The position numbers and the translations under genes were made by a program. Source: Lusitaniella coriacea LEGE 07157 (GTDB taxonomy: Bacteria > Cyanobacteriota > Cyanobacteriia > Cyanobacteriales > Spirulinaceae). From it: 64,000 bases of DNA. This document shows positions 1,098-11,081 of this stretch, one piece after another. How positions within the stretch are numbered: position 1 is the stretch's first letter; each line of letters begins with the position of its first letter. Location: assembly GCF_015207425.1 (NCBI RefSeq), contig NZ_JADEWZ010000028.1, positions 1-64,000 of the forward strand, given 5' to 3'. The notes under the pieces were generated by a model. It searched no databases. It saw only the letters and a program-made list of their open reading frames with translations, and had not been told where the DNA came from.

Positions 1098-3338
1098 ATG
1101 AATGCGACTCGATGGGTTATTCTCTGCTGTGCTTACGGTGCGAGCTTATTATCGACGGCTATTTTAGGGTTTCCGACGCGATCGGTTTCCTGGCAACAAT
1201 GGGGTGGATTAGCATTAAGTTGGGCAATTTTGGGAGTTGTTGCTGGATTCGTCGTACCGCGATTTTGGCGCATGAGTCCCCGATTGCCGATTTGGATTGC
1301 GGCGGGGTTGGTGGGTGCTTTAGCGGTTTCTCATTTGCAGTTGCGCGTCCCTCAAATGGCTCGGAACGATCTTAGTTTGCTGGTTCCTCAGCTTGAAGGA
1401 TTGGCAACAGTTCGAGGTCAAATTTTGAATATGCCAACCCTTAACCGCAAGCAAAATGTCCGTTTTTTGTTGGCAGCAGAGACGGTTAACGATCGCGCGA
1501 TTTCTGGAAAGGTTTATGTAACCGTACCATTGCTTCAAGGAACGGGTCTGGTTCCCAGGCAAGGCATTACGATTCGAGGAATTTTGTATCAACCCAAACC
1601 TGCCGCTCATCCTGGCGCTTTTGATTTTCAGGGCTTTTTAGCACGGCAAGGCGTTTTTTCAGGACTCAAGGGTTATTCAGTGGAGTCTTTGACAGAAGCG
1701 CCTTGGGGATGGTGGCAAATTCGATCGCGCATTATTCGCGCTCAAGTACGCTGGTTAGGCAGTCCGACGGGACAATTGGTGAGTTCGATTGTTTTGGGAC
1801 GGCGCGCAGTCGATCTTCCCGACGATATTCGAGAGGCATTTATTCAAGCGGGTTTAGCTCACGTTCTTGCCGCTTCTGGGTTTCACGTTTCTCTATTGCT
1901 GGGTGTCATTCTTGTGCTAACTCGCAATTTGGCAGGAGGAACGCGGTTGTGGATTGGGATGGTGGCGTTGAGCATTTATGTGGGTTTGACGGGCGTTCAA
2001 GCGTCGGTGATGCGAGCAGTTATTATGGGATGCGGCGCGCTGGTCGGGTTGGCAACGGAACGAAAGGTTAAACCCCTCGGATTGTTATTACTCGCGGCAA
2101 CGCTATTACTACTGTGCAACCCTTTATGGATTTGGGATTTAGGGTTTCAGTTGAGTTTCCTGGCAACATTGGGATTAATGGTGACAACTCCCAGGATTGT
2201 GGAAAAGTTGGATTGGCTGCCTCCCACAATTGCGACGTTAATCGCCGTTCCCCTCGCGGCTTCCCTGTGGACATTGCCGTTACTGCTTTACGTTTTTAAC
2301 ACCGTCGCAACCTACAGTATTCCGATCAATATTCTGACAACGCCTTTAATTTCTGCCATTAGTCTTGGGGGAATGGTTAGTGCGTTAGTGGCATTGATTT
2401 TTCCGCTTGCAGGCAGCGCGATCGCGTGGTTGCTCTATTATCCCGCACAAATCCTTATCGCGATCGTGCAATTTTTCACCCATTTACCGGGTCATTCTTG
2501 GGCTGTGGGAAAAATCGAACTGTGGCAATTATTCCTCGTTTATGGCGCAATTTTCCTAATTTGGCAGCTAAAGCACGTGCGTCGTTATTGGGGAGGAATT
2601 CTCTTATTTTGCATTCTATTGATTATTGCGCCCATTTACTACAACCATTTGACGCGCGTACAAATTACCGTGTTGCCGACCCAACCCTTACCTGCAATTG
2701 TATTGGAAGATCGGGGGAAAGTCAGTTTAATCAATAGCGGCGATGAGGATACGGTTCGCTACACCGTACTTCCTTTTTTACGCAATCGAGGAATTAATTC
2801 TCTGCATTTCGCGATCGATCCACAGTATGACCTACAACAGGGTTGGTCAAGTATTTTTGAGGATTTAAGCGTTAAAACCTTTTTCGCAATCCCAGAGCGC
2901 GAGAAAAGTGGCATAAAGGATACGAAAGGGGCAAAATACCAACCCCTCAAAGCCGGTCAAACCATTAAATTAGGTTCTGCTCTAACTCTAAAAGTAATGC
3001 ATACCTCGCCCTCTGTTTTTCAGTTAAAAACTCAAGAAGGACAATGGTTATTAGTCGATTGGCAAGTGCCACAACCTCAAAATCCAAACCCAACCATCCA
3101 GTCTGTCCCCATCGCGCAATCTGAAATATTGTTATGGTCTGGCGAAACCCTAAAACCCGAATGGTTAAAAACCATTCAGCCTAAAGTTGTGATTACCACT
3201 TCAGAAAAAACGGTGCCAGACCCCCAAAAACAAATTCAGTTATACGCAACAGAACGCGATGGTTCGGTTCAATGGCAATTGGGAAAAGGATTTGAAGCCA
3301 ACATTGAAACGACCGATCTCAATAACTCTATTCTCTAA
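1098..3338 (+). CDS. comEC: ComEC/Rec2-family DNA uptake channel protein
   Basis: Polytopic inner-membrane protein of natural transformation, thought to pass single-stranded DNA into the cytoplasm. The order is: N-terminal membrane helices (about 5-70), a soluble OB-like segment (about 90-200, containing HPGAFDFQGFLARQGVF, typical of DUF4131), then the Competence domain with many helices (about 215-520) including the signature GLAHVLAASGFHVSLLLG. The C-terminal 230 residues sit where ComEC proteins carry a metallo-beta-lactamase-like domain, but the metal motif HxHxDH is not present (LHFAIDPQYDL stands there), so this domain is probably not a metal-dependent nuclease. Length 746 aa is normal. 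It directly follows glyQ and could be co-transcribed. Confidence 0.9.
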   Translation: MNATRWVILCCAYGASLLSTAILGFPTRSVSWQQWGGLALSWAILGVVAGFVVPRFWRMSPRLPIWIAAGLVGALAVSHLQLRVPQMARNDLSLLVPQLEGLATVRGQILNMPTLNRKQNVRFLLAAETVNDRAISGKVYVTVPLLQGTGLVPRQGITIRGILYQPKPAAHPGAFDFQGFLARQGVFSGLKGYSVESLTEAPWGWWQIRSRIIRAQVRWLGSPTGQLVSSIVLGRRAVDLPDDIREAFIQAGLAHVLAASGFHVSLLLGVILVLTRNLAGGTRLWIGMVALSIYVGLTGVQASVMRAVIMGCGALVGLATERKVKPLGLLLLAATLLLLCNPLWIWDLGFQLSFLATLGLMVTTPRIVEKLDWLPPTIATLIAVPLAASLWTLPLLLYVFNTVATYSIPINILTTPLISAISLGGMVSALVALIFPLAGSAIAWLLYYPAQILIAIVQFFTHLPGHSWAVGKIELWQLFLVYGAIFLIWQLKHVRRYWGGILLFCILLIIAPIYYNHLTRVQITVLPTQPLPAIVLEDRGKVSLINSGDEDTVRYTVLPFLRNRGINSLHFAIDPQYDLQQGWSSIFEDLSVKTFFAIPEREKSGIKDTKGAKYQPLKAGQTIKLGSALTLKVMHTSPSVFQLKTQEGQWLLVDWQVPQPQNPNPTIQSVPIAQSEILLWSGETLKPEWLKTIQPKVVITTSEKTVPDPQKQIQLYATERDGSVQWQLGKGFEANIETTDLNNSIL

Positions 3339-3395
3339 AGTTCTGGTCAATTGCACCCAAAACTCAGTAGAATAGCTAGGATACGCTCTAAACCT

Positions 3396-3482
3396 GGAGA
3401 GGTGGCAGAGTGGTTGAATGCGGCGGTCTCGAAAACCGCTAAGGCGGCAACGTCTTCGAGGGTTCAAATCCCTCCCTCTCCG
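3396..3482 (+). tRNA. tRNA-Ser (anticodon CGA), copy 1
   Basis: An 87-nt class II tRNA. Acceptor strands GGAGAGG (3396-3402) and CCTCTCC (3475-3481) pair perfectly, with discriminator G. The anticodon stem GCGGT/ACCGC encloses loop CTCGAAA, giving anticodon CGA (reads UCG). There is a long variable arm (about AAGGCGGCAACGTCTT) and a T-loop GGTTCAAATCC. CCA is not encoded. An identical second copy lies 1138 bp downstream. Confidence 0.96.
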
Positions 3483-3528
3483 TTTTCCATTAGCTCTAGA
3501 ATTTGTGTTATTCAGCTAGAGATACGCT

Positions 3529-4554
3529 ATGACTGAAAGCAAGCACAAAGCTTACTCGTCACACATCCTGAACCCTGTTGAGTCCATTCGCAAGCGACCT
3601 GGAATGTATCTTGGCAGTACGAATTTCTTTGGCTTCGTTCAATACCTTGTATCCGCGTTCGATCTCATGCTCGATTGTGGAGCGACGTGGCTCGAATTTG
3701 AAGTGGCAGAGAACTTTAAAATGTCTTCCGATGCCTGCATTCCAACGTCCTTCAACGCTCGTCAGTTGCTGGAGCCATTTGAAGCAATTGGCAAGTTTGA
3801 ATATCAGCACGCTCCTGATGCAATTGTACTCATGGCTCTCTCACAAGAGTTCCGGGTCACCATTAACGATGGTGAAACACAAACCGTGCTGGCAACAGAA
3901 TATGGCGAGCGAGAATTGCTCCAACGGGAGCCGGCAATCACTTCAAAAGTCGGCACTGTCTTAGAATTCTCTCCCGACTGTTATATCTTCTCCGTTGTTG
4001 AAGTATCGTCAATGGTTGTTCATAGCTACTGCAAGCGAACTGCCTGTCTTCATCCGGGTGTGGCGTTTCGCATTAAGATCGGCGACGAGGTAACGGAATA
4101 CAGGTCTAATGATGGCATTTGCGATTTCTTTGCTGCAATTTCAACCCCCTACCAGATCCTTCACCAGCCAATTCACATTCATGAATCTAATGGCGACCTC
4201 ACAGTCGAAACTATTTTCACTTTTCACAGTTGGACAGAGAACCGAATCTGGTCATTCGCTAACAAGGGTCGCGTCCCAGATGGCGGCACGCATGAAGCTG
4301 GAATGCTGGATGCAATCGCCCAACTGCATAATCGGCACACGGATTCGGCTGTAGGCGTACTCGCCGTACTCGCCATCGAATATCCTCACGTAACCTATGA
4401 GGGCTGTATCAAGGCGCGTATTGGCAATCCCGAACTACGCGATCGCGTCTGCAAGCTTGTTACCACTGGTTTGGAGCATTGGGTTCGCGATAATGTACAA
4501 GAGGTTGAATACCTCAAGACGATCGAACGGTTCCAGTTCGCTGATGTTTGGTGA
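3529..4554 (+). CDS. GyrB-like protein with degenerate ATPase motifs, no TOPRIM
   Basis: A 341-aa protein colinear with the N-terminal half of DNA gyrase B/ParE (GHKL ATPase plus transducer). It opens with ESIRKRPGMYLGST, matching the GyrB AVRKRPGMYIG block. Later it has SFANKGRVPDGGTHEAG, like the GyrB SFANxxxTxxGGTHExG, and near the end ARIGNPELRDRV, like TKLGNPEVR. Key ATP residues are lost. The N-box Glu/Asn (normally ExxDNSxDE) is replaced by AFDLMLDCGA, the DGRGIP box by SSDACIP, and the GGLHGVG lid is missing. It stops where the TOPRIM and C-terminal domains should begin. What I see is a probable non-ATPase gyrase relative. Function is unknown; a partner or modulator of gyrase is only a guess. 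It sits alone between two identical tRNA-Ser genes, suggesting acquisition as a unit. Confidence 0.75.
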   Translation: MTESKHKAYSSHILNPVESIRKRPGMYLGSTNFFGFVQYLVSAFDLMLDCGATWLEFEVAENFKMSSDACIPTSFNARQLLEPFEAIGKFEYQHAPDAIVLMALSQEFRVTINDGETQTVLATEYGERELLQREPAITSKVGTVLEFSPDCYIFSVVEVSSMVVHSYCKRTACLHPGVAFRIKIGDEVTEYRSNDGICDFFAAISTPYQILHQPIHIHESNGDLTVETIFTFHSWTENRIWSFANKGRVPDGGTHEAGMLDAIAQLHNRHTDSAVGVLAVLAIEYPHVTYEGCIKARIGNPELRDRVCKLVTTGLEHWVRDNVQEVEYLKTIERFQFADVW

Positions 4555-4565
4555 TGGAAGTCTAG

Positions 4566-4620
4566 TGGTTCGTCAATCTCGATCTTGTGCGTTGAGGCTG
4601 ACACGGTGATGCGGAGACGG
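4566..4620 (+). repeat. Dispersed repeat R2, left module
   Basis: Bases 4566-4596 (starting TGGTTCGTCAA) match 15954-15984 at about 27 of 31 positions and also align with 24355-24385. The following TGACACGGTGATGCGGAGA matches 38051-38069 exactly. The repeat runs directly into the second tRNA-Ser. Confidence 0.7.
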
Positions 4621-4707
4621 GGAGAGGTGGCAGAGTGGTTGAATGCGGCGGTCTCGAAAACCGCTAAGGCGGCAACGTCTTCGAGGGTTCAAATCCCTCC
4701 CTCTCCG
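4621..4707 (+). tRNA. tRNA-Ser (anticodon CGA), copy 2
   Basis: Base-for-base identical to the tRNA at 3396-3482 over all 87 nt, with the same acceptor pairing, CGA anticodon and long variable arm. Identity stops exactly at both gene ends; the flanks are unrelated. It ends 16 bp from the 3' end of the convergent sdhA gene. Confidence 0.95.
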
Positions 4708-4723
4708 TACATTATTGACGCTT

Positions 4724-6451
4724 TTAATACTTCCGTTCCTTGGGTTCAAAGCGATTGATACTCACATCCATGTATTCAATCTCAATGCCCGCAGGGGAAT
4801 AATAAGCCAGAGTGTGTTTGAGGAATTGTTTGTCATTCCGATTGGGAAAATCTTCCCGCGAGTGCGCGCCGCGACTTTCTTGACGCTTCAGGGCAGAAGT
4901 TAAGATTGTTTCGCCAACAATGGTTAAATTTTGCAATTCCAGCGCTTCTAGTAACTCTGTATTCCAGCAGGTATCTTTGTCGTCGAGATAAATTTGCCCA
5001 TACTGTTGCTGGAGTTGGCGTAACCGTTTCAAGCCTTCCTGCATAATTTCTGCGGTGCGAAAGACTCCGCAATGTTCGCTCATGCAATCTTGGAATTCTT
5101 GGCGAATTTTAGCAATACGAATCGTTCCATTTTGATTTAAAAGGGATTGAATGCGTTCTTTTGCAGCGTTGAGATAGGATTGGGCATTAACATTAGGAAG
5201 TTTGCGGTTCTGTACGCATCCAGCAATGGTTTTACCCGTTCTTCTGCCATAAACCACACATTCTAAAAGGGAATTACTACCCAAGCGGTTTGCCCCATGA
5301 ACGGAGACACAGGCACATTCCCCAGCAGCGAAGAAACCTTCTACCAGGCTGTCCGCAGAACGGCGTACTTGCCCGTCAGTATTGACAGGGATGCCTCCCA
5401 TTGAGTAATGGGCAGTGGGGCGCACGGGCATTGGTTCATCTACTGCATCAATATCTAAGTGTCGGTGGGCTTCTTCCCAAGCAAAGGGAACGCGCAGCAT
5501 AATACTTTCCCGTCCCATGTGGCGCAAATCGAGATGAACAAAGGTTCCGCCAGGACTGCCATCGGGATGAATACCACGTCCGGCACGAATTTCAAGGGTG
5601 ATGGCGCGGGAGGTGATGTCGCGGGGGGCAAGTTCCATTTGATTGGGGGCATAATCTTCCATGAAGCGCTTGCCGTCACTATTGCGCAGGTAGGCTCCTT
5701 CCCCCCGAACGGCTTCGGAAATGAGTACGCCAACGGGATACAATCCTGTGGGGTGAAATTGAACGAATTCCATGTCTTCTAGGGGTAATCCCGCGATCGC
5801 GCACATGGCTAATCCATCCCCCGTTGAGGCATAGTCATTAGAAGTTGTATTAAAGACTCTACCGTAGCCCCCAGTTGCGAACATCACTGCTTTCGCCCGA
5901 ACGACTTCTAAGGAACTATCGAGAATGCGGTACATAACAACGCCTTTCGCCGTATTCTCTTCGAGAATCAGTTGCAAAACGTACCATTCTTCATAAACGC
6001 GCACGCCGTAGCGTCGCAAATTGTTGACCAATTCGTGTAGAATCGCGTGTCCGGTTTTATCGGCAGCATAGCAGGTGCGCTTGTGGGAGTGTCCCCCAAA
6101 TGCGCGTTGGGCAATGCGCCCGTCGGGGAGACGGGAGAAAAGAACGCCCAGATGTTCTAAGTCAATGACCACATCCGGGGCTTCTTGAGTGAGAATTGCA
6201 ACGGCATCTTGATCTGCGAGGTAGTCGGAACCTTTAACCGTATCGAAGGCGTGGGCTTCCCAACCATCTTCAGGATCGACGTTTCTTAGAGTTGCTGCCA
6301 TTCCCCCTTGGGCGGCGACGGAGTGAGAGCGGATGGGGTGGGTTTTGGCAACAATGGCAACGTCAATGCTGGGGTCAGTCTGTTTGATTTCGAGGGCAGC
6401 ACGGCAACCAGCTAAACCACCGCCAACAATAATAACGTCGTGTTCGAGCAT
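4724..6451 (-). CDS. sdhA: Succinate dehydrogenase/fumarate reductase flavoprotein subunit
   Basis: FAD-containing catalytic subunit that oxidises succinate to fumarate, feeding electrons into the thylakoid or plasma-membrane quinone pool. The N-terminal Rossmann motif is VIIVGGGLAGCRAALE. The flavin-attachment region HPIRSHSVAAQGG contains the histidine that normally binds FAD covalently. The substrate loop HPTGLYPVGVLISEAVRGEG and the catalytic-arginine block GANRLGSNSLLE are present, as is HYSMGGIPV. The length of 575 aa is normal. The iron-sulfur and membrane-anchor genes are not adjacent, which is usual in cyanobacteria. The start is the first ATG, directly before the FAD motif. The gene follows the dihydroorotase-like gene on the same strand after 98 bp. 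Confidence 0.93.
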   Translation of the reverse strand: MLEHDVIIVGGGLAGCRAALEIKQTDPSIDVAIVAKTHPIRSHSVAAQGGMAATLRNVDPEDGWEAHAFDTVKGSDYLADQDAVAILTQEAPDVVIDLEHLGVLFSRLPDGRIAQRAFGGHSHKRTCYAADKTGHAILHELVNNLRRYGVRVYEEWYVLQLILEENTAKGVVMYRILDSSLEVVRAKAVMFATGGYGRVFNTTSNDYASTGDGLAMCAIAGLPLEDMEFVQFHPTGLYPVGVLISEAVRGEGAYLRNSDGKRFMEDYAPNQMELAPRDITSRAITLEIRAGRGIHPDGSPGGTFVHLDLRHMGRESIMLRVPFAWEEAHRHLDIDAVDEPMPVRPTAHYSMGGIPVNTDGQVRRSADSLVEGFFAAGECACVSVHGANRLGSNSLLECVVYGRRTGKTIAGCVQNRKLPNVNAQSYLNAAKERIQSLLNQNGTIRIAKIRQEFQDCMSEHCGVFRTAEIMQEGLKRLRQLQQQYGQIYLDDKDTCWNTELLEALELQNLTIVGETILTSALKRQESRGAHSREDFPNRNDKQFLKHTLAYYSPAGIEIEYMDVSINRFEPKERKY

Positions 6452-6549
6452 TTGGGATCGGCACAGTGAGTGTTCTTTTTTTTATCGTGACTTAGATAGC
6501 GCGTTCTGGGGGATGAATCGGGAAACTTCGTTACAAACAAAATTTAACG

Positions 6550-7818
6550 CTATTTTTGATTTTTCGGATGCCACACTTGAATTGCGCGTCCTTTAATCTC
6601 TTTTCCCAACCAATAGGTATTGTGACTGAGAGATTGCAGGGTTTGAGGGTTAACGTTCCAGGTTTGATGGGGATCGAATAAAACTAACTCTGCCGATTCT
6701 CCCACAGCACAACGCAGGGGGGGCTGCTGAAGGCAGCGCAGGGGTGCCGTACTCAAGCGATTCCATAGTGTTAGTGCGGACCATTCGCCGGTTTCAACGA
6801 ATCGATGCCACAACAGAGGAAGGGCAAGTTCCAATCCAATTGCGCCGCAGGGTGCGTCAGCAAAGGCAACGGTTTTCTCGGCATAGGTGAAGGGTGCGTG
6901 ATCGATCGCGATCGCGTCTAGGGTTCCTTCTCGAACTCCTTGAATTAAAGCCGCGCGATCGTTGGGATTGCCAAGGGGAGGATCGAGGCGCAAATTGGGA
7001 TCGTAACTCCCCATCTCTTCGGTGGACAAGAGTAGGTGCAACCAAGTGACGCTAGCAGTAATCGGTAAACCGCGCGATTTCGCTTCTGCAATCAACTCAA
7101 CGCCTCGTGCAGTTGAAACGCGCATCAAATGGACGTTTGCGTGGGTTACAGCAATGATTTCTAGTAATGCCGCGATCGCGGCGGCTTCAGAAATTGCCGG
7201 ATCTCCAGGCAAACCGGAACGAATCGATAGTACGCCCTCTCGCATTACACCTTCTCCCCGTAGCGCGCGATCGGTTGCCACTAAAGCAAGGGGTTTTCCT
7301 AAAGGTGCTAAATACTCCAAAATCTGACGAAGTACGCCAAAATTCGAGATCGGGCGACCATCTGTAAAACCAATACAATGGGCAGCACTTAACTCCGCCA
7401 ATTCGGTCATTTGTTGCCCTTCGAGGTTTTGAGTTGCCGCACCCCAAAAATAAAAACGGGCTGTGTTAGGGGGTTGCTTTTTACGCAAGCGTTCTAATAC
7501 CGATGGATTATCAATAGGAGGAATGGTGTCGGGTAATAGAGCAATGCGCGTCACACCTCCCGCAAGGGCTGCTGAACGCAGGCTATCAAGGGTTTCCCGC
7601 TCTTCGCGACCGGGTTCGCCACTGCGAGCATAAAGCTCGACTAAACCGGGCGCAAGGATTAACCCTCGGCTGTCTCGCACGGTCGTTTCTTGAGGAATAT
7701 CAACAATTTTGGGCGAAATCTCGCGAATTTTTCCCTCAGCAATCCAAATATCCGCCACGCGATCGGTTCCAGAAACCGGATCCAGGACTCTCACTTGTTC
7801 TAGGAGTTCGCTACCCAT
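6550..7818 (-). CDS. Dihydroorotase-like amidohydrolase, metal-ligand motif missing
   Basis: 422-aa member of the cyclic amidohydrolase family, annotated as dihydroorotase (PyrC, pyrimidine synthesis) in cyanobacteria. The fold signals are clear: GLILAPGLVELYARSGEPGREERETLDS at the N-terminus, GVTRIALLPDTIPPIDNP, a central TDGRPISNFGVLRQIL, and IAIDHAPFTYAEK near residue 305. The zinc-binding HxH that should follow the APGLVD position (DxHxHxRxPG) is replaced by ELYARSGEPG, so both first-site histidines are absent; the late Asp of DHAP is retained. This looks like the non-catalytic, structural dihydroorotase homologue described as partner of aspartate carbamoyltransferase in some bacteria. 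Whether it is active here is unknown. Confidence 0.8.
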   Translation of the reverse strand: MGSELLEQVRVLDPVSGTDRVADIWIAEGKIREISPKIVDIPQETTVRDSRGLILAPGLVELYARSGEPGREERETLDSLRSAALAGGVTRIALLPDTIPPIDNPSVLERLRKKQPPNTARFYFWGAATQNLEGQQMTELAELSAAHCIGFTDGRPISNFGVLRQILEYLAPLGKPLALVATDRALRGEGVMREGVLSIRSGLPGDPAISEAAAIAALLEIIAVTHANVHLMRVSTARGVELIAEAKSRGLPITASVTWLHLLLSTEEMGSYDPNLRLDPPLGNPNDRAALIQGVREGTLDAIAIDHAPFTYAEKTVAFADAPCGAIGLELALPLLWHRFVETGEWSALTLWNRLSTAPLRCLQQPPLRCAVGESAELVLFDPHQTWNVNPQTLQSLSHNTYWLGKEIKGRAIQVWHPKNQK

Positions 7819-7964
7819 AAATCACTACGCATTTAAATCGCGAGCTAGGGCTGATGCAAAGGGATCGGATTTCCTCTGAAAATGCAAGCCAATCTGGGGG
7901 GAATAGGAAGACGTGCAGCGTTGATACCAATCGATTCAATCGTAAAGGGAGATGCATATTCCGC

Positions 7965-8492
7965 TTAACTCGAAGTCACTAAACGCTTGCGCAAGGATTC
8001 TACCCGACGCTTTGCCGTTGCATTTTTAGGTTCGTATTTCAAGGATTCTTCATAGACTTCTACTGCTTGAGCAATTAACTTTTTCTGTTCGTAAACGTGA
8101 CCGAGATTATTTAACGCAATGACGTATTCAGGATTGTACTTAATGGCTTCTTTATACTGACGAATTGCCAAGTCGTGTTGCTCGTTTGCGAAGTAAGCAT
8201 AGCCAATCCCATTATAGATTAAGGCTTTATTTTCTGGGATTATTTCTTCTGCTTTTAAGGCTTTATCAAATGCTTTCGTCGCTTGAGTAAACATTTTTTT
8301 GTCTAAAAAAATACTGCCTAATTCGTAATATTCTAAAGCAGTTCCCTTTTCTTTTTTGAGTTTATTTTGGAGTTTTGAAAGTTTGCTTTCCTTGCGCCGA
8401 ACTTTAAAAATCTGAACTAAAATAACCCCGGATGCGATAGTCAATAATCCGAGCAATATAGAGATATAAATTGTGGGAAGAGTTTCATTCAT
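7965..8492 (-). CDS. Membrane-anchored tetratricopeptide repeat protein
   Basis: A 175-aa protein with one N-terminal membrane helix (about 6-28, IYISILLGLLTIASGVILVQ), a basic linker (KVRRKESKLSKLQNKLKK), then about three TPR units (about 50-160). The consensus is visible in ALEYYELGSIFLDKKMFTQA, ALIYNGIGYAYFANEQHDLA and VIALNNLGHVYEQKKLIAQA. TPR arrays bind protein partners; none can be named here. The basic linker suggests the repeats face the cytoplasm. Similar small TPR proteins occur widely in cyanobacteria, some linked to photosystem assembly, but I cannot assign that role. Confidence 0.85.
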   Translation of the reverse strand: MNETLPTIYISILLGLLTIASGVILVQIFKVRRKESKLSKLQNKLKKEKGTALEYYELGSIFLDKKMFTQATKAFDKALKAEEIIPENKALIYNGIGYAYFANEQHDLAIRQYKEAIKYNPEYVIALNNLGHVYEQKKLIAQAVEVYEESLKYEPKNATAKRRVESLRKRLVTSS

Positions 8493-8523
8493 GGTTTAAA
8501 AATCAACGATTCGGTTATTTCAA

Positions 8524-9306
8524 TTAAGACAGTCCCCAATGGACAATTCTCTCCTGCAACCAACCGGATTTTTGCCAGCGTAGCAGCGCCCGATCGACTT
8601 GAAGGTATAGTTCGCTGTATTCCAATCCCTTGGGCATCGCAATACACAGGGCTTTTCCCGGCAAACGAACGGGTAAGAGGCGATAAGTGGGATATTCTTG
8701 AATCCAGCCGGTTAAAAGGGTTCTATCGGCGGCAAAAGCATCAATTTCCCCGATTTCCAGACGATCGCGCGCCTCTTGATAAGACTCAACGCCCACCAGG
8801 CGCGCTTTGGGAAATTCATAACGAATGTCCGCGATCGTACTCGATCCTTGCAAAACAGCAATCTTGCCTGTTGCTAAGTCCCCTCGACTTTGTATTTTGG
8901 GGTTGCGGCTGACCAATCCCGTGCTGTTTAAGTAATAATATCGGCTCAGGTTAACCACGCGATCGCGCACTTCCGTCGCACTCAGGTTAGCAACAACCAG
9001 ATCGACTTCTCCCTGAAGCAATAGGGGTAAGCGATCTTGATTCCTCACAGGGCGAAACTCCACAGCATCGGGACTCCCCAACCACTCTTGAGCCAATTGT
9101 CGGGCAATATCAATCTCTAAGCCTTGCAAGTTGCCGCGATCGTCGGTGAATCCTAACGGGCGCAAGTTATCTTTAACTGCCACAATGAGCTTGCCCCGAC
9201 GGTTAATTTCTGCCAAACTGGCAGCCGAAACCGGATCGCACAGAAAATAGGACGCGCCCAATAGCGCGATCGCGCAACTCAAACTGGCAATTTTCTGCTT
9301 TAGCAT
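8524..9306 (-). CDS. Periplasmic amino-acid-type substrate-binding protein
   Basis: 260-aa solute-binding protein of the SBP_bac_3 family (polar amino acid ABC transporters). A Sec signal peptide is visible (hydrophobic core CAIALLGASYFLC, likely cleavage near VSAAS). The mature part starts with LAEINRRGKLIVAVKDNLRPLGF and has the ligand-site motif GLEIDIARQLAQEWLG, VDLVVANLSATEVRDR, KIAVLQGSSTIADI and EIGEIDAFAADR. No permease or ATPase gene is adjacent, so the transport partners are elsewhere or the protein acts in sensing. Ligand unknown. It lies 31 bp upstream of the TPR gene on the same strand. Confidence 0.87.
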   Translation of the reverse strand: MLKQKIASLSCAIALLGASYFLCDPVSAASLAEINRRGKLIVAVKDNLRPLGFTDDRGNLQGLEIDIARQLAQEWLGSPDAVEFRPVRNQDRLPLLLQGEVDLVVANLSATEVRDRVVNLSRYYYLNSTGLVSRNPKIQSRGDLATGKIAVLQGSSTIADIRYEFPKARLVGVESYQEARDRLEIGEIDAFAADRTLLTGWIQEYPTYRLLPVRLPGKALCIAMPKGLEYSELYLQVDRALLRWQKSGWLQERIVHWGLS

Positions 9307-9405
9307 TAGGACGCTTGGAAATAGCAGTGAGATTGAATAAACGCTCTCGGTTTCACCGAAAGAAAAGCGAGATTTCGGGTGCGACTGAAACCGCCCCCAT
9401 TCTCT

Positions 9406-9759
9406 TTACTTCGCCTGCTCTGCCAACTCTACCACTTTGCTAAAAGCTTCCGGATCGAGGATTGCAAGCTGCGCCAGCATTTTACGATTCAATTCGATAT
9501 TTGCTTTTTTCAATTTTCCCGTAAACTGGCTGTAACTCAAACCGTGCGATCTAGAAGCAGCATTGATGCGCGTAATCCAGAGGCGGCGAAAATCTCGCTT
9601 GCGATTGCGGCGATCGCGGTAAGCGTTCCGCAAAGCCTTCATCACCTGTTGATTCGCCGTGCGGAATAACTTCGAGTGCGATCCTCGAAAACCTTTCGCG
9701 AGTTTAAGAATTTTTTTGCGCCGTTTGCGCGCAACGTTTCCGCGCTTTACCCTTGCCAT
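9406..9759 (-). CDS. rplT: 50S ribosomal protein L20
   Basis: 117-aa primary 23S rRNA-binding protein needed for early assembly of the large subunit. It has the highly basic N-terminus [20 protein letters not shown], then [20 protein letters not shown] and the globular part [19 protein letters not shown]. Start and length match the family. It lies 46 bp downstream of rpmI in the conserved rpmI-rplT pair; infC is not beside them. Confidence 0.98.
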
Positions 9760-9805
9760 AATTTTTTCCTAGGTTTTTCAATCAAATTTTCTTCAACAAT
9801 CCACC

Positions 9806-10006
9806 TTACATATAAGGCATCATCAAGCGAACGTTCGGCGCATCGCGCTCGTCAACCAAAGATAGATTGGAGAGGCGACGGCGCTTGCGTTCGGCACTTT
9901 TGCACTGTAGTAAGTGGTTTTTATAAGCCTTACGACGGCGAATTTTTCCCGTTGCCGTTGGGCGAAAGCGTTTAGCGGCAGCTCTTTTGGTTTTCAGCTT
10001 GGGCAT
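9806..10006 (-). CDS. rpmI: 50S ribosomal protein L35
   Basis: 66-aa basic ribosomal protein with the usual start [20 protein letters not shown] and the [13 protein letters not shown] stretch. First gene of the rpmI-rplT operon. The 253 bp upstream, shared with the divergent Band-7 gene, should hold its promoter and any L20-responsive leader, though no such structure could be verified by eye. Confidence 0.97.
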
Positions 10007-10259
10007 TGACTTGTCTCAATTCGACACAATTCATCATTCTACTATTAACCTCTCGGCTACAGCAAGCTTGCACCGATTTAAATTTTCCGTAGTGGGGGGT
10101 TTTGCTTTCAGGACTCGCGCCCCTCTCCCACATGGGGAAATCTACCTTTATGATAGAAGGAGACGCACGTCGATCGAGTCCGTTCGAGGTCATGTTTTCG
10201 GCAACCGTCCCAGACCTCGTTTTTCCTTATCCACTCCATTGCCAACGGCGGTTTTCAAA

Positions 10260-11081
10260 ATGCTAAATTACCTTCTCTACAGCATTATTACCCTTGTTTT
10301 AGGGGGATTGGGCTATTCTTTAGCTTCCATGAGAATTATTACCGAAGGAAATGAAGCGCTAGTCGAACGATTGGGGAAGTTTCAGAGAAAATTGGAACCC
10401 GGACTAAATTTTGTGACTCCTTTCCTCGATTCGATTGTGGTGGAAGAAACCAATCGAGAAAAAGTACTCGACGTTCCACCGCAAAATACAATTACCCAAG
10501 ATAACGTGTCTTTGAAAGTGGATGCGGTTGTCTATTGGCAAATTATCGATCTCGAAAAAACTTTTTACTTGGTTGAAGATGTTGAGGAAGCGATTGAGAA
10601 TTTAGTCCTCACGACGCTACGTTCGGAAATCGGTCAACTGGATTTGGAAGATACTTACTCCTCCAGAGATAAAATCAACAAAACCCTTTTGCAGCAACTC
10701 GATGAAGCAACGGGAAATTGGGGCGTGAAAGTGACGCGGGTTGAAGTCAAAGAACTCACTCCCGCACAAAATGTCATGGAATCCCTAGAACTCGAACGGG
10801 CAGCGAAAAGTAAGAAAAATGCAGAAATCATGGAAATGCAGGGAACGCAGCAATCCATTGAAATGATTTCCGACGCGATCGATCGCAACAAAAATCGCAA
10901 AGAGGTTCTTAGCTTTTTAACTCTTCAGCGCTACGTTGAAGCCTTGGAGAAATTGGGCGATAGTTCCAATGCGAAGATCGTGTTTATGGATCCTAAAGCT
11001 TTGAATGAAGCCGTTGCCGAGCTGATGGATGGGGAAGTTCCATCAGATTCAGCCGGGGGGATCGATTTGAGTAACAATTAG
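10260..11081 (+). CDS. SPFH/Band 7 (stomatin-like) membrane protein
   Basis: 273-aa member of the stomatin/prohibitin superfamily, membrane scaffolds that form large oligomers and often interact with proteases. There is an N-terminal membrane hairpin (LLYSIITLVLGGLGYSLASM), then the SPFH domain with ITEGNEALVERLGKFQRKLEPGLNF, TQDNVSLKVDAVVYWQI and TTLRSEIGQLDLEDTYSSR, ending in a helical oligomerisation region rich in Glu/Lys (ELERAAKSKKNAEIMEMQG). The frame is open upstream to 9987, but the family start is the ATG at 10260 and the extra residues overlap rpmI. Divergent from rpmI. Confidence 0.9.
   Translation: MLNYLLYSIITLVLGGLGYSLASMRIITEGNEALVERLGKFQRKLEPGLNFVTPFLDSIVVEETNREKVLDVPPQNTITQDNVSLKVDAVVYWQIIDLEKTFYLVEDVEEAIENLVLTTLRSEIGQLDLEDTYSSRDKINKTLLQQLDEATGNWGVKVTRVEVKELTPAQNVMESLELERAAKSKKNAEIMEMQGTQQSIEMISDAIDRNKNRKEVLSFLTLQRYVEALEKLGDSSNAKIVFMDPKALNEAVAELMDGEVPSDSAGGIDLSNN

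Follow-up and report, generated by a model that had tools for sequence, protein, structure and literature searches.

A predicted stand-alone pseudo-GyrB represents a conserved, patchily distributed, and apparently undescribed cyanobacterial protein family

Gyrase is one of the major targets of antibacterial compounds, and known proteins act on the N-terminal region of its GyrB subunit, among them protein gyrase inhibitors (accessible portion of PMC10886550). For example, Fic toxins modify GyrB at Tyr109 (accessible portion of PMC10886550), and the toxin Cpe1 cleaves GyrB at LHAGGKF (accessible portion of PMC12136450). In those portions of the two papers, none of the gyrase modulators MfpA, FicT, and Cpe1 (the last with its immunity protein Cpi1) is described as a homologue of GyrB; their likeness to the family described below is that it may act in the same part of gyrase biology. 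A planctomycete carries a shorter GyrB paralogue that retains Toprim (accessible portion of PMC8567305), and a Myxococcus xanthus protein named "DNA gyrase, B subunit, truncated" (PDB 3cwv, 369-residue chain) is TOPRIM-less, judging from its length and name. A search of open-licence papers, with subscription journals mostly outside its scope, returned no description of TOPRIM-less GyrB pseudo-ATPases, and the cyanobacterial family that we report is apparently undescribed.

The gene lies in a 64,000-nucleotide stretch of the cyanobacterium Lusitaniella coriacea LEGE 07157 (contig NZ_JADEWZ010000028.1, positions 1 to 64,000; the whole stretch is called the window here). It is an intact open reading frame (ORF) of 341 codons on the forward strand (3529..4554) and encodes a degenerate GHKL ATPase domain (residues ~1 to 185), a transducer domain (~196 to 327), and a C-terminal tail (RFQFADVW). 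The blocks RKRPGMYLG, GGTHEAG, and IGNPELR were all found. The sole Pfam match was the gyrase B transducer (PF00204; 50.9 bits, 1.6e-13; residues 196 to 327), scores against the NCBIfam GyrB/ParE models were far under the model cutoffs, and the nearest solved structures by sequence were ParE and GyrB chains. The AlphaFold2 model, for which 22 GyrB/ParE rows from viral contigs served as input, had a mean pLDDT of 83.7 and a pTM of 0.80; the low-confidence stretches were residues 1 to 12, 74 to 76, 82 to 95, and 339 to 341, and residues 82 to 95 (pLDDT, <50) correspond to the expected ATP lid region, i.e., the pocket loop. The top Foldseek match of the model was the ParE 43-kDa fragment (E 1.1e-31; TM 0.81), and VIA aligned the model with that fragment (Z 34.0; 324 residues; rmsd 3.5) and with the 43K fragment of Escherichia coli GyrB (Z 33.7). 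The initial annotation, made from the letters of the window, had called the protein colinear with the ATPase and transducer domains of GyrB, and AlphaFold, Foldseek, and VIA all bear this out: the protein is predicted to have the GHKL ATPase plus transducer fold of GyrB/ParE. The Myxococcus protein also matches it overall (VIA Z 28.3 over 315 residues; profile E 1.1e-13), but it ranks below many ordinary GyrB/ParE proteins in both the sequence and the structure rankings.

With the N-terminal 43-kDa half of GyrB/ParE, the family shares the fold, the order of elements, RKRPxMY, GGTH, the lysine of the QTK loop, and the transducer. Unlike GyrB/ParE, it lacks TOPRIM, the C-terminal domain, E42, N46, E50, R76, the lid, and Q335 (E. 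coli numbering). The absence of TOPRIM is as first annotated: in the window protein and in both orthologues presented below (i.e., those of genomes G725 and G818), the ORF stops before TOPRIM (EGDSAGG) and before the C-terminal GyrA-binding region. We compared the ATP site with a reference alignment of 75 full-length GyrB/ParE proteins, whose N-terminal half has 57 positions with conservation of 95% or more; the window protein retains 35 of these 57. Relative to the GyrB of the same genome (E. coli positions in brackets), E41 (E42) is replaced by S, N45 (N46) by L, Q339 (Q335) by C, and, in two alignments, D72 (D73) by S; E49 (E50) is a gap or C, depending on the alignment; R75 (R76) is absent; and G76 (G77) is C. 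Retained residues are K341 (K337), T166 (T165), and K102 (K103). The DGRGIP box reads SSDA-CIP in the window protein, and its G, R, and G are gone from all three proteins, as is the lid GGLHGVG, which is deleted or replaced in each. Each of the three has CIK at the QTK loop, where the K is thus the only residue retained. An aspartate, D68, is invariant across the three proteins and lies one residue off the D73 position, so the loss of the adenine-contacting aspartate is uncertain by one residue. The motif losses first annotated are thus upheld for the N-box Glu and Asn, the lid, and the G, R, and G of DGRGIP, and are left uncertain for its Asp. Conservation was lower at the ATP site (6 of 18 positions retained) than elsewhere (29 of 39; Fisher p 0.007), on a list of 18 positions that we take to form the ATP site and that was picked once the alignment had been seen; an alternative three-member alignment shifts Y108 from kept to lost, which gives 5 of 18. 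After GGTHLxGx, the basic (K/R) residue is replaced by L in the window and G725 proteins and is R in the G818 protein; this L speaks against simple DNA handling by every member. As a separate observation, the gyrB gene of the same genome (L002) and locus L008 have a long open frame in which a CFDGDT-like sequence follows EGDSAGG, an intein-like arrangement within TOPRIM.

A search of the class (388 genomes) identified two strong orthologues in other cyanobacterial families, both with E values of 5.5e-66 or better against the window protein. The G725 orthologue is about 55 to 56% identical (405.9 bits), and the G818 orthologue is about 40 to 42% identical (224.2 bits). The G818 gene sits on a 4.5-Mb contig; for the G725 gene, carried by a 10.5-kb contig of an assembly with 62% completeness, the host assignment depends on binning. 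Both orthologues lack E42, N46, E50, the lid, and Q335. Across the window, G725, and G818 proteins, respectively, E42 is S, S, and C, N46 is L in all, Q335 is C in all, and K337 is K in all. The degree of loss varies among members, since T165 (T, I, and V, respectively) and K103 survive in the window protein only. Of the 57 near-invariant GyrB positions, all three members retain 23, and a further 22 are retained by no member. Conversely, 35 residues are invariant in the three members and occur in <5% of the 75 GyrB/ParE proteins, including the R, Q, and W of the C-terminal RFQxAxW and residues of FHSWxE. The SDA at residues 67 to 69 and the QTK-loop lysine K295 (in GCIK, 292 to 295) are likewise invariant. 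The N-terminal dimer arm is missing in the G818 protein, and the arm region is partly retained in the other two. At the sequence level, the three proteins form a conserved, patchily distributed cyanobacterial family of predicted stand-alone pseudo-GyrBs.

Three carriers were found among about 1,060 distinct genomes searched at differing thresholds. The 12 other genomes of the same family yielded matches only in frames of at least 646 amino acids (aa) and no pseudo-GyrB, and in the order (388 genomes, E 1e-20) the window gene was the sole match, the 387 other genomes being without one. In the orders of the two orthologues, the gene was present in 1 of 6 and 1 of 29 genomes at the class-search threshold. 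The phylum search (386 genomes) returned, besides the window gene, nothing better than E 1.1e-17, with frames of at least 473 aa among the matches listed. In a further family (f6; 217 genomes, profile search), 178 genomes passed the cutoff of a profile that also detects GyrB; no member was recognised among the best matches listed, where a very divergent member could escape, the best 20 lying in frames of at least 637 aa and the shortest frame listed being 488 aa (G980). Searches with exact peptide patterns of the window protein gave no close homologue in genome contigs or viral contigs. No member was recognised among the matches listed by the phage, plasmid, and viral-contig searches, where those that covered most of the query had a best identity of ~28% or less; the phage and plasmid hits include pieces that look TOPRIM-less (e.g., H13, H14, and H70). 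The PADLOC antiphage defense models did not match the window protein up to E 10 or the orthologues up to E 1.

The differences between the window and G725 genes at codon positions 1, 2, and 3 were 0.36, 0.21, and 0.67, respectively. NG86 estimates gave a dN of 0.37 with saturated dS for this pair, and a dN of 0.62 with a dS of 3.03 for the window and G818 genes. In a simulation of neutral decay from the gyrB of the same genome, all 300 copies had lost their open frame at 0.5 substitutions per site, where identity was 37%. Together with the 35 of 57 GyrB positions retained, this intact frame goes beyond what chance would leave. Going by these comparisons, the family appears to be under purifying selection. 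The initial annotation had named two outcomes that would count against its reading; of these, a same-length homologue with intact ATP motifs did not occur among those examined, and an unconserved decayed remnant is made very unlikely by the orthologues and by selection.

The gene is solitary in the window, and the three members have no common neighbor. Seven of eight window neighbors tested had a Pfam match (e.g., glycyl-tRNA synthetase alpha, competence protein, and flavoprotein). In G725 the upstream neighbor is an Endonuclease_NS gene. Just before the G725 pseudo-GyrB lies a 128-bp, 88% copy of the 3' end of an esterase-like gene (L224:6562-6689 and 7975-8102), which is beyond the Endonuclease_NS gene from its source; because of this partial gene copy just upstream, the G725 site also appears rearranged, differently from the window. 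In G818 an ORF of 198 aa (L225:8417-9010) lies 30 bp upstream and is a possible operon partner there; it had no Pfam match, no plasmid match, and a best PADLOC E value of 0.034. Transposase-like ORFs were noted downstream of the G818 gene by reading translations. The codon score of the window gene was unremarkable (8th lowest among 30 window ORFs) and gave no sign of foreign codon usage. The gene probably arrived by horizontal transfer, which would fit members in three cyanobacterial families with different neighbors.

Stand-alone forms were also found in actinobacteria. A plasmid tblastn search returned TOPRIM-less proteins of ~390 aa on Streptomyces linear plasmids (L050, L051, and L052), annotated as "ATP-binding protein." Scanning with one of these as the query yielded 68 loci; the ORF was TOPRIM-less with a degenerate ATP site at 20 of them, and no ORF was scored at two (L202 and L221). 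Most of the transducer is also missing at L219, which is among the 20. Together, the 20 genome loci (among L154 to L219) and the three plasmid loci make 23 loci, with hosts in Streptomyces, Kitasatospora, Yinghuangia, and Catenulispora (e.g., WP_331742737.1). The proteins are 355 to 453 aa long (22 clustered loci; starts chosen mechanically). N46 is replaced in 23 of 23, the lid is altered, K337 is mostly R, and E42 is mostly retained; the only shared neighbor is a helicase-like gene (5 of 23). These forms thus resemble the cyanobacterial family in being TOPRIM-less, in their degenerate ATP site, and in mostly having no shared neighbors, but they differ in being nested in actinobacterial GyrB and in mostly retaining E42. 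Against the GyrB model NF004189, the L050 protein scored 443 bits versus 103 for the window protein. With 81 bits to the window protein, the best Streptomyces protein outscored every GyrB then compared; we considered whether the Streptomyces proteins belong to the same family and rejected this, as they group with actinobacterial GyrB.

In the maximum-likelihood tree, the three cyanobacterial members formed one clade (support, 100/100) on a long stem of about 1.8 changes per column. The tree rows were hand selected and included 17 of the 23 actinobacterial stand-alone loci (L154, L157, L190, L203, L206, and L219 were left out); these 17 formed one clade (99/99) within actinobacterial GyrB. The cyanobacterial family grouped with three viral rows and with L220 (98/94), a placement that carries a long-branch warning; with L072 and L220 removed, no supported set larger than the family contained it. 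The free trees do not join the family to the actinobacterial stand-alone clade. AU tests rejected neither a placement with cyanobacterial GyrB (p 0.318 for the window protein alone and 0.299 for the three members) nor one with the actinobacterial stand-alone clade (p 0.418 and 0.355, respectively). The actinobacterial forms may be either a parallel case or a distant sister of the cyanobacterial family. Predicted stand-alone GyrB halves with degenerate ATP motifs recur in bacteria, and the initial annotation, which had raised the recurrence of such dead-motif, TOPRIM-less forms, is confirmed on this point by the two orthologues and the separate actinobacterial clade.

Our tentative preference, which we hold to be somewhat short of probable, is that the family is an N-terminal GyrB half, dead as an ATPase, that has been kept for a noncatalytic role, with its binding target likeliest to lie in gyrase biology. 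A GyrB-type N-terminal half (ATPase fold plus transducer) would have shed TOPRIM and the main ATP hydrolysis residues, and selection would then have retained it for the new role. We infer that it works by binding: its GyrB-like surface, mainly that of the transducer, may modulate gyrase, or it may alternatively occupy an effector of the N gate (i.e., a T-segment mimic, a toxin, or another inhibitor). GyrB touches GyrA via TOPRIM and the C-terminal region; GyrA, one of the partners first suggested, is an unlikely target because that region is absent, whereas a gyrase inhibitor, also first suggested, or an attacker of gyrase may be bound. The genomic context, a lone gene in the window and a different neighbor in each member, points to no particular partner. 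The fold could instead have been reused outside gyrase biology, as a ligand or nucleotide sensor or a scaffold whose altered pocket (SDA, 67 to 69; GCIK, 292 to 295) binds a small molecule or a protein. The 35 family-invariant residues that are rare in GyrB (those of RFQxAxW and FHSWxE included), a pocket region that is conserved though altered (invariant SDA and K295), and the long stem branch would all suit such a reuse, which we consider a serious but rather improbable alternative; against it, the only part that Pfam recognises is the transducer, which is a mechanical part in gyrase. Catalysis of a cryptic kind would need D68 to stand in for D73 and other residues for E42 and N46. Every member has D68, one residue away from the D73 position, K337 is retained, and the pocket loop is modeled at low confidence, but with S, S, and C at E42, L throughout at N46, and no Gly-rich lid in any member, we regard an active ATPase as highly improbable.

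Two further readings keep the protein close to gyrase. It might be a dominant-negative inhibitor, used as a weapon by a phage or selfish element, that forms an N-gate heterodimer with host GyrB and blocks strand passage. The GyrB-like predicted fold, the sporadic accessory distribution, and the partly retained arm of the window and G725 proteins are in keeping with this. However, the N-gate dimer contact is made by the arm together with the ATP lid, and the lid is missing in all three members, as is the arm in G818; moreover, there is no antitoxin-like neighbor in the window, and no member was recognised among the phage, plasmid, and viral-contig matches listed, all of which makes such a weapon quite unlikely. 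Alternatively, the protein may be a decoy for attackers of GyrB that is itself neither cut nor modified and so shields gyrase, an idea suggested by residue losses that we find very doubtful. The double glycine of the Cpe1 site LHAGGKF (site from the accessible portion of PMC12136450) is absent in all three members, and the Tyr targeted by Fic toxins is absent in the G725 and G818 proteins; the window protein has Y92 or a gap there, depending on the alignment, and this disagreement weakens the decoy reading. These losses are equally explained by lost catalysis, because the residues lie in the ATP pocket or next to it. Lastly, a functionless, decaying fragment of a transferred gyrB would account for the extreme divergence and for the absence of the gene from the 12 other family genomes and the 387 others of the order (E 1e-20), yet the ORF is intact where no simulated copy stayed open, the change between orthologues is mostly at third positions with low dN/dS, and the losses are common to the three members, which leaves this explanation hardly credible. 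If the preferred reading of a binding role in gyrase biology is true, a conserved, apparently dead copy of the ATPase half of gyrase, present in cyanobacteria and, as a separate clade, in Streptomyces and its relatives, would be a novel mode of influencing or shielding the enzyme; alternatively, the family would be an example of a GHKL ATPase become a pure binding protein. For genes of this kind, labels such as "ATP-binding protein" or "gyrase B" may give a wrong impression.

As first annotated, two identical tRNA-Ser genes enclose one gene: tRNA-Ser(CGA) copy 1 (3396..3483, forward strand) and copy 2 (4621..4708, forward strand) are exact 88-bp repeats (100% identity), and the pseudo-GyrB gene is the sole sizeable gene between them (the other ORFs, of 81 to 128 aa, overlap it). 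Copy 1 lies just downstream of a comEC-like competence gene (1098..3338, forward strand), and copy 2 lies 15 bp from the 3' end of a convergent succinate dehydrogenase/fumarate reductase-type flavoprotein gene (4724..6451, reverse strand). A TAGAAT box was seen by eye 22 bp upstream of copy 1, and several relatives have TACAAT boxes 14 to 25 bp upstream; no promoter-like box was seen by eye upstream of copy 2. Thirteen family genomes, none of the same genus, were available for comparison of the site. In three of 11 relatives (L036, L037, and L042), comEC is just upstream of a single tRNA-Ser(CGA) and the downstream DNA differs; the other eight loci fetched have no comEC within about 1.5 kb. 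Since the comEC neighbor recurs in these relatives, copy 1 is probably in the older place.

Immediately before copy 2 is the left part (59 bp; 4562..4620, forward strand) of a dispersed, MITE-like repeat, which ends where the inner GGGGAGAG meets the 5' GGAGAG of the tRNA. Elsewhere in the genome there were 40 matches, every one of them to this end of the query. In 39 fetched stretches over those matches (L115 to L153), 37 left ends were present, along with 21 full elements of 83 to 263 bp that have inverted ends (CTAGTGGTTCGTCAA and ACTGACAGACCACTAG) and a GA-rich inner part of variable length. GGGGAGAG occurs within 130 nucleotides in four of the 37 other left ends, and GGAGAG occurs in 11. 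Because GGGGAGAG runs directly into GGAGAG, the left border of copy 2 resembles a short-homology rearrangement. A direct repeat of tRNA sequence at both ends is a trait that the bracket shares with elements integrated at tRNA sites. The initial annotation read the bracket and gene as if acquired together as a unit; this is not supported, as there is no tRNA near the orthologues (within the fetched 10.5 or 19.5 kb), no integrase or other mobility gene lies between the tRNA copies, and copy 2 meets a truncated repeat. At most, the bracket is what an insertion left behind after losing the rest of its content, and a simple duplication of the tRNA by template switching is possible; the best reading of the duplication around the gene is a local rearrangement or an insertion scar. 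A short repeat near copy 1, AGCTAG(A)GATACGCT, was set aside as too weak (6 of 1,000 shuffles in one of six comparisons). Elsewhere in the same genome, an array on the short contig C76 (about 2600 to 10424; part in L049) holds 34 of the 80 matches of the genome to the tRNA model RF00005.
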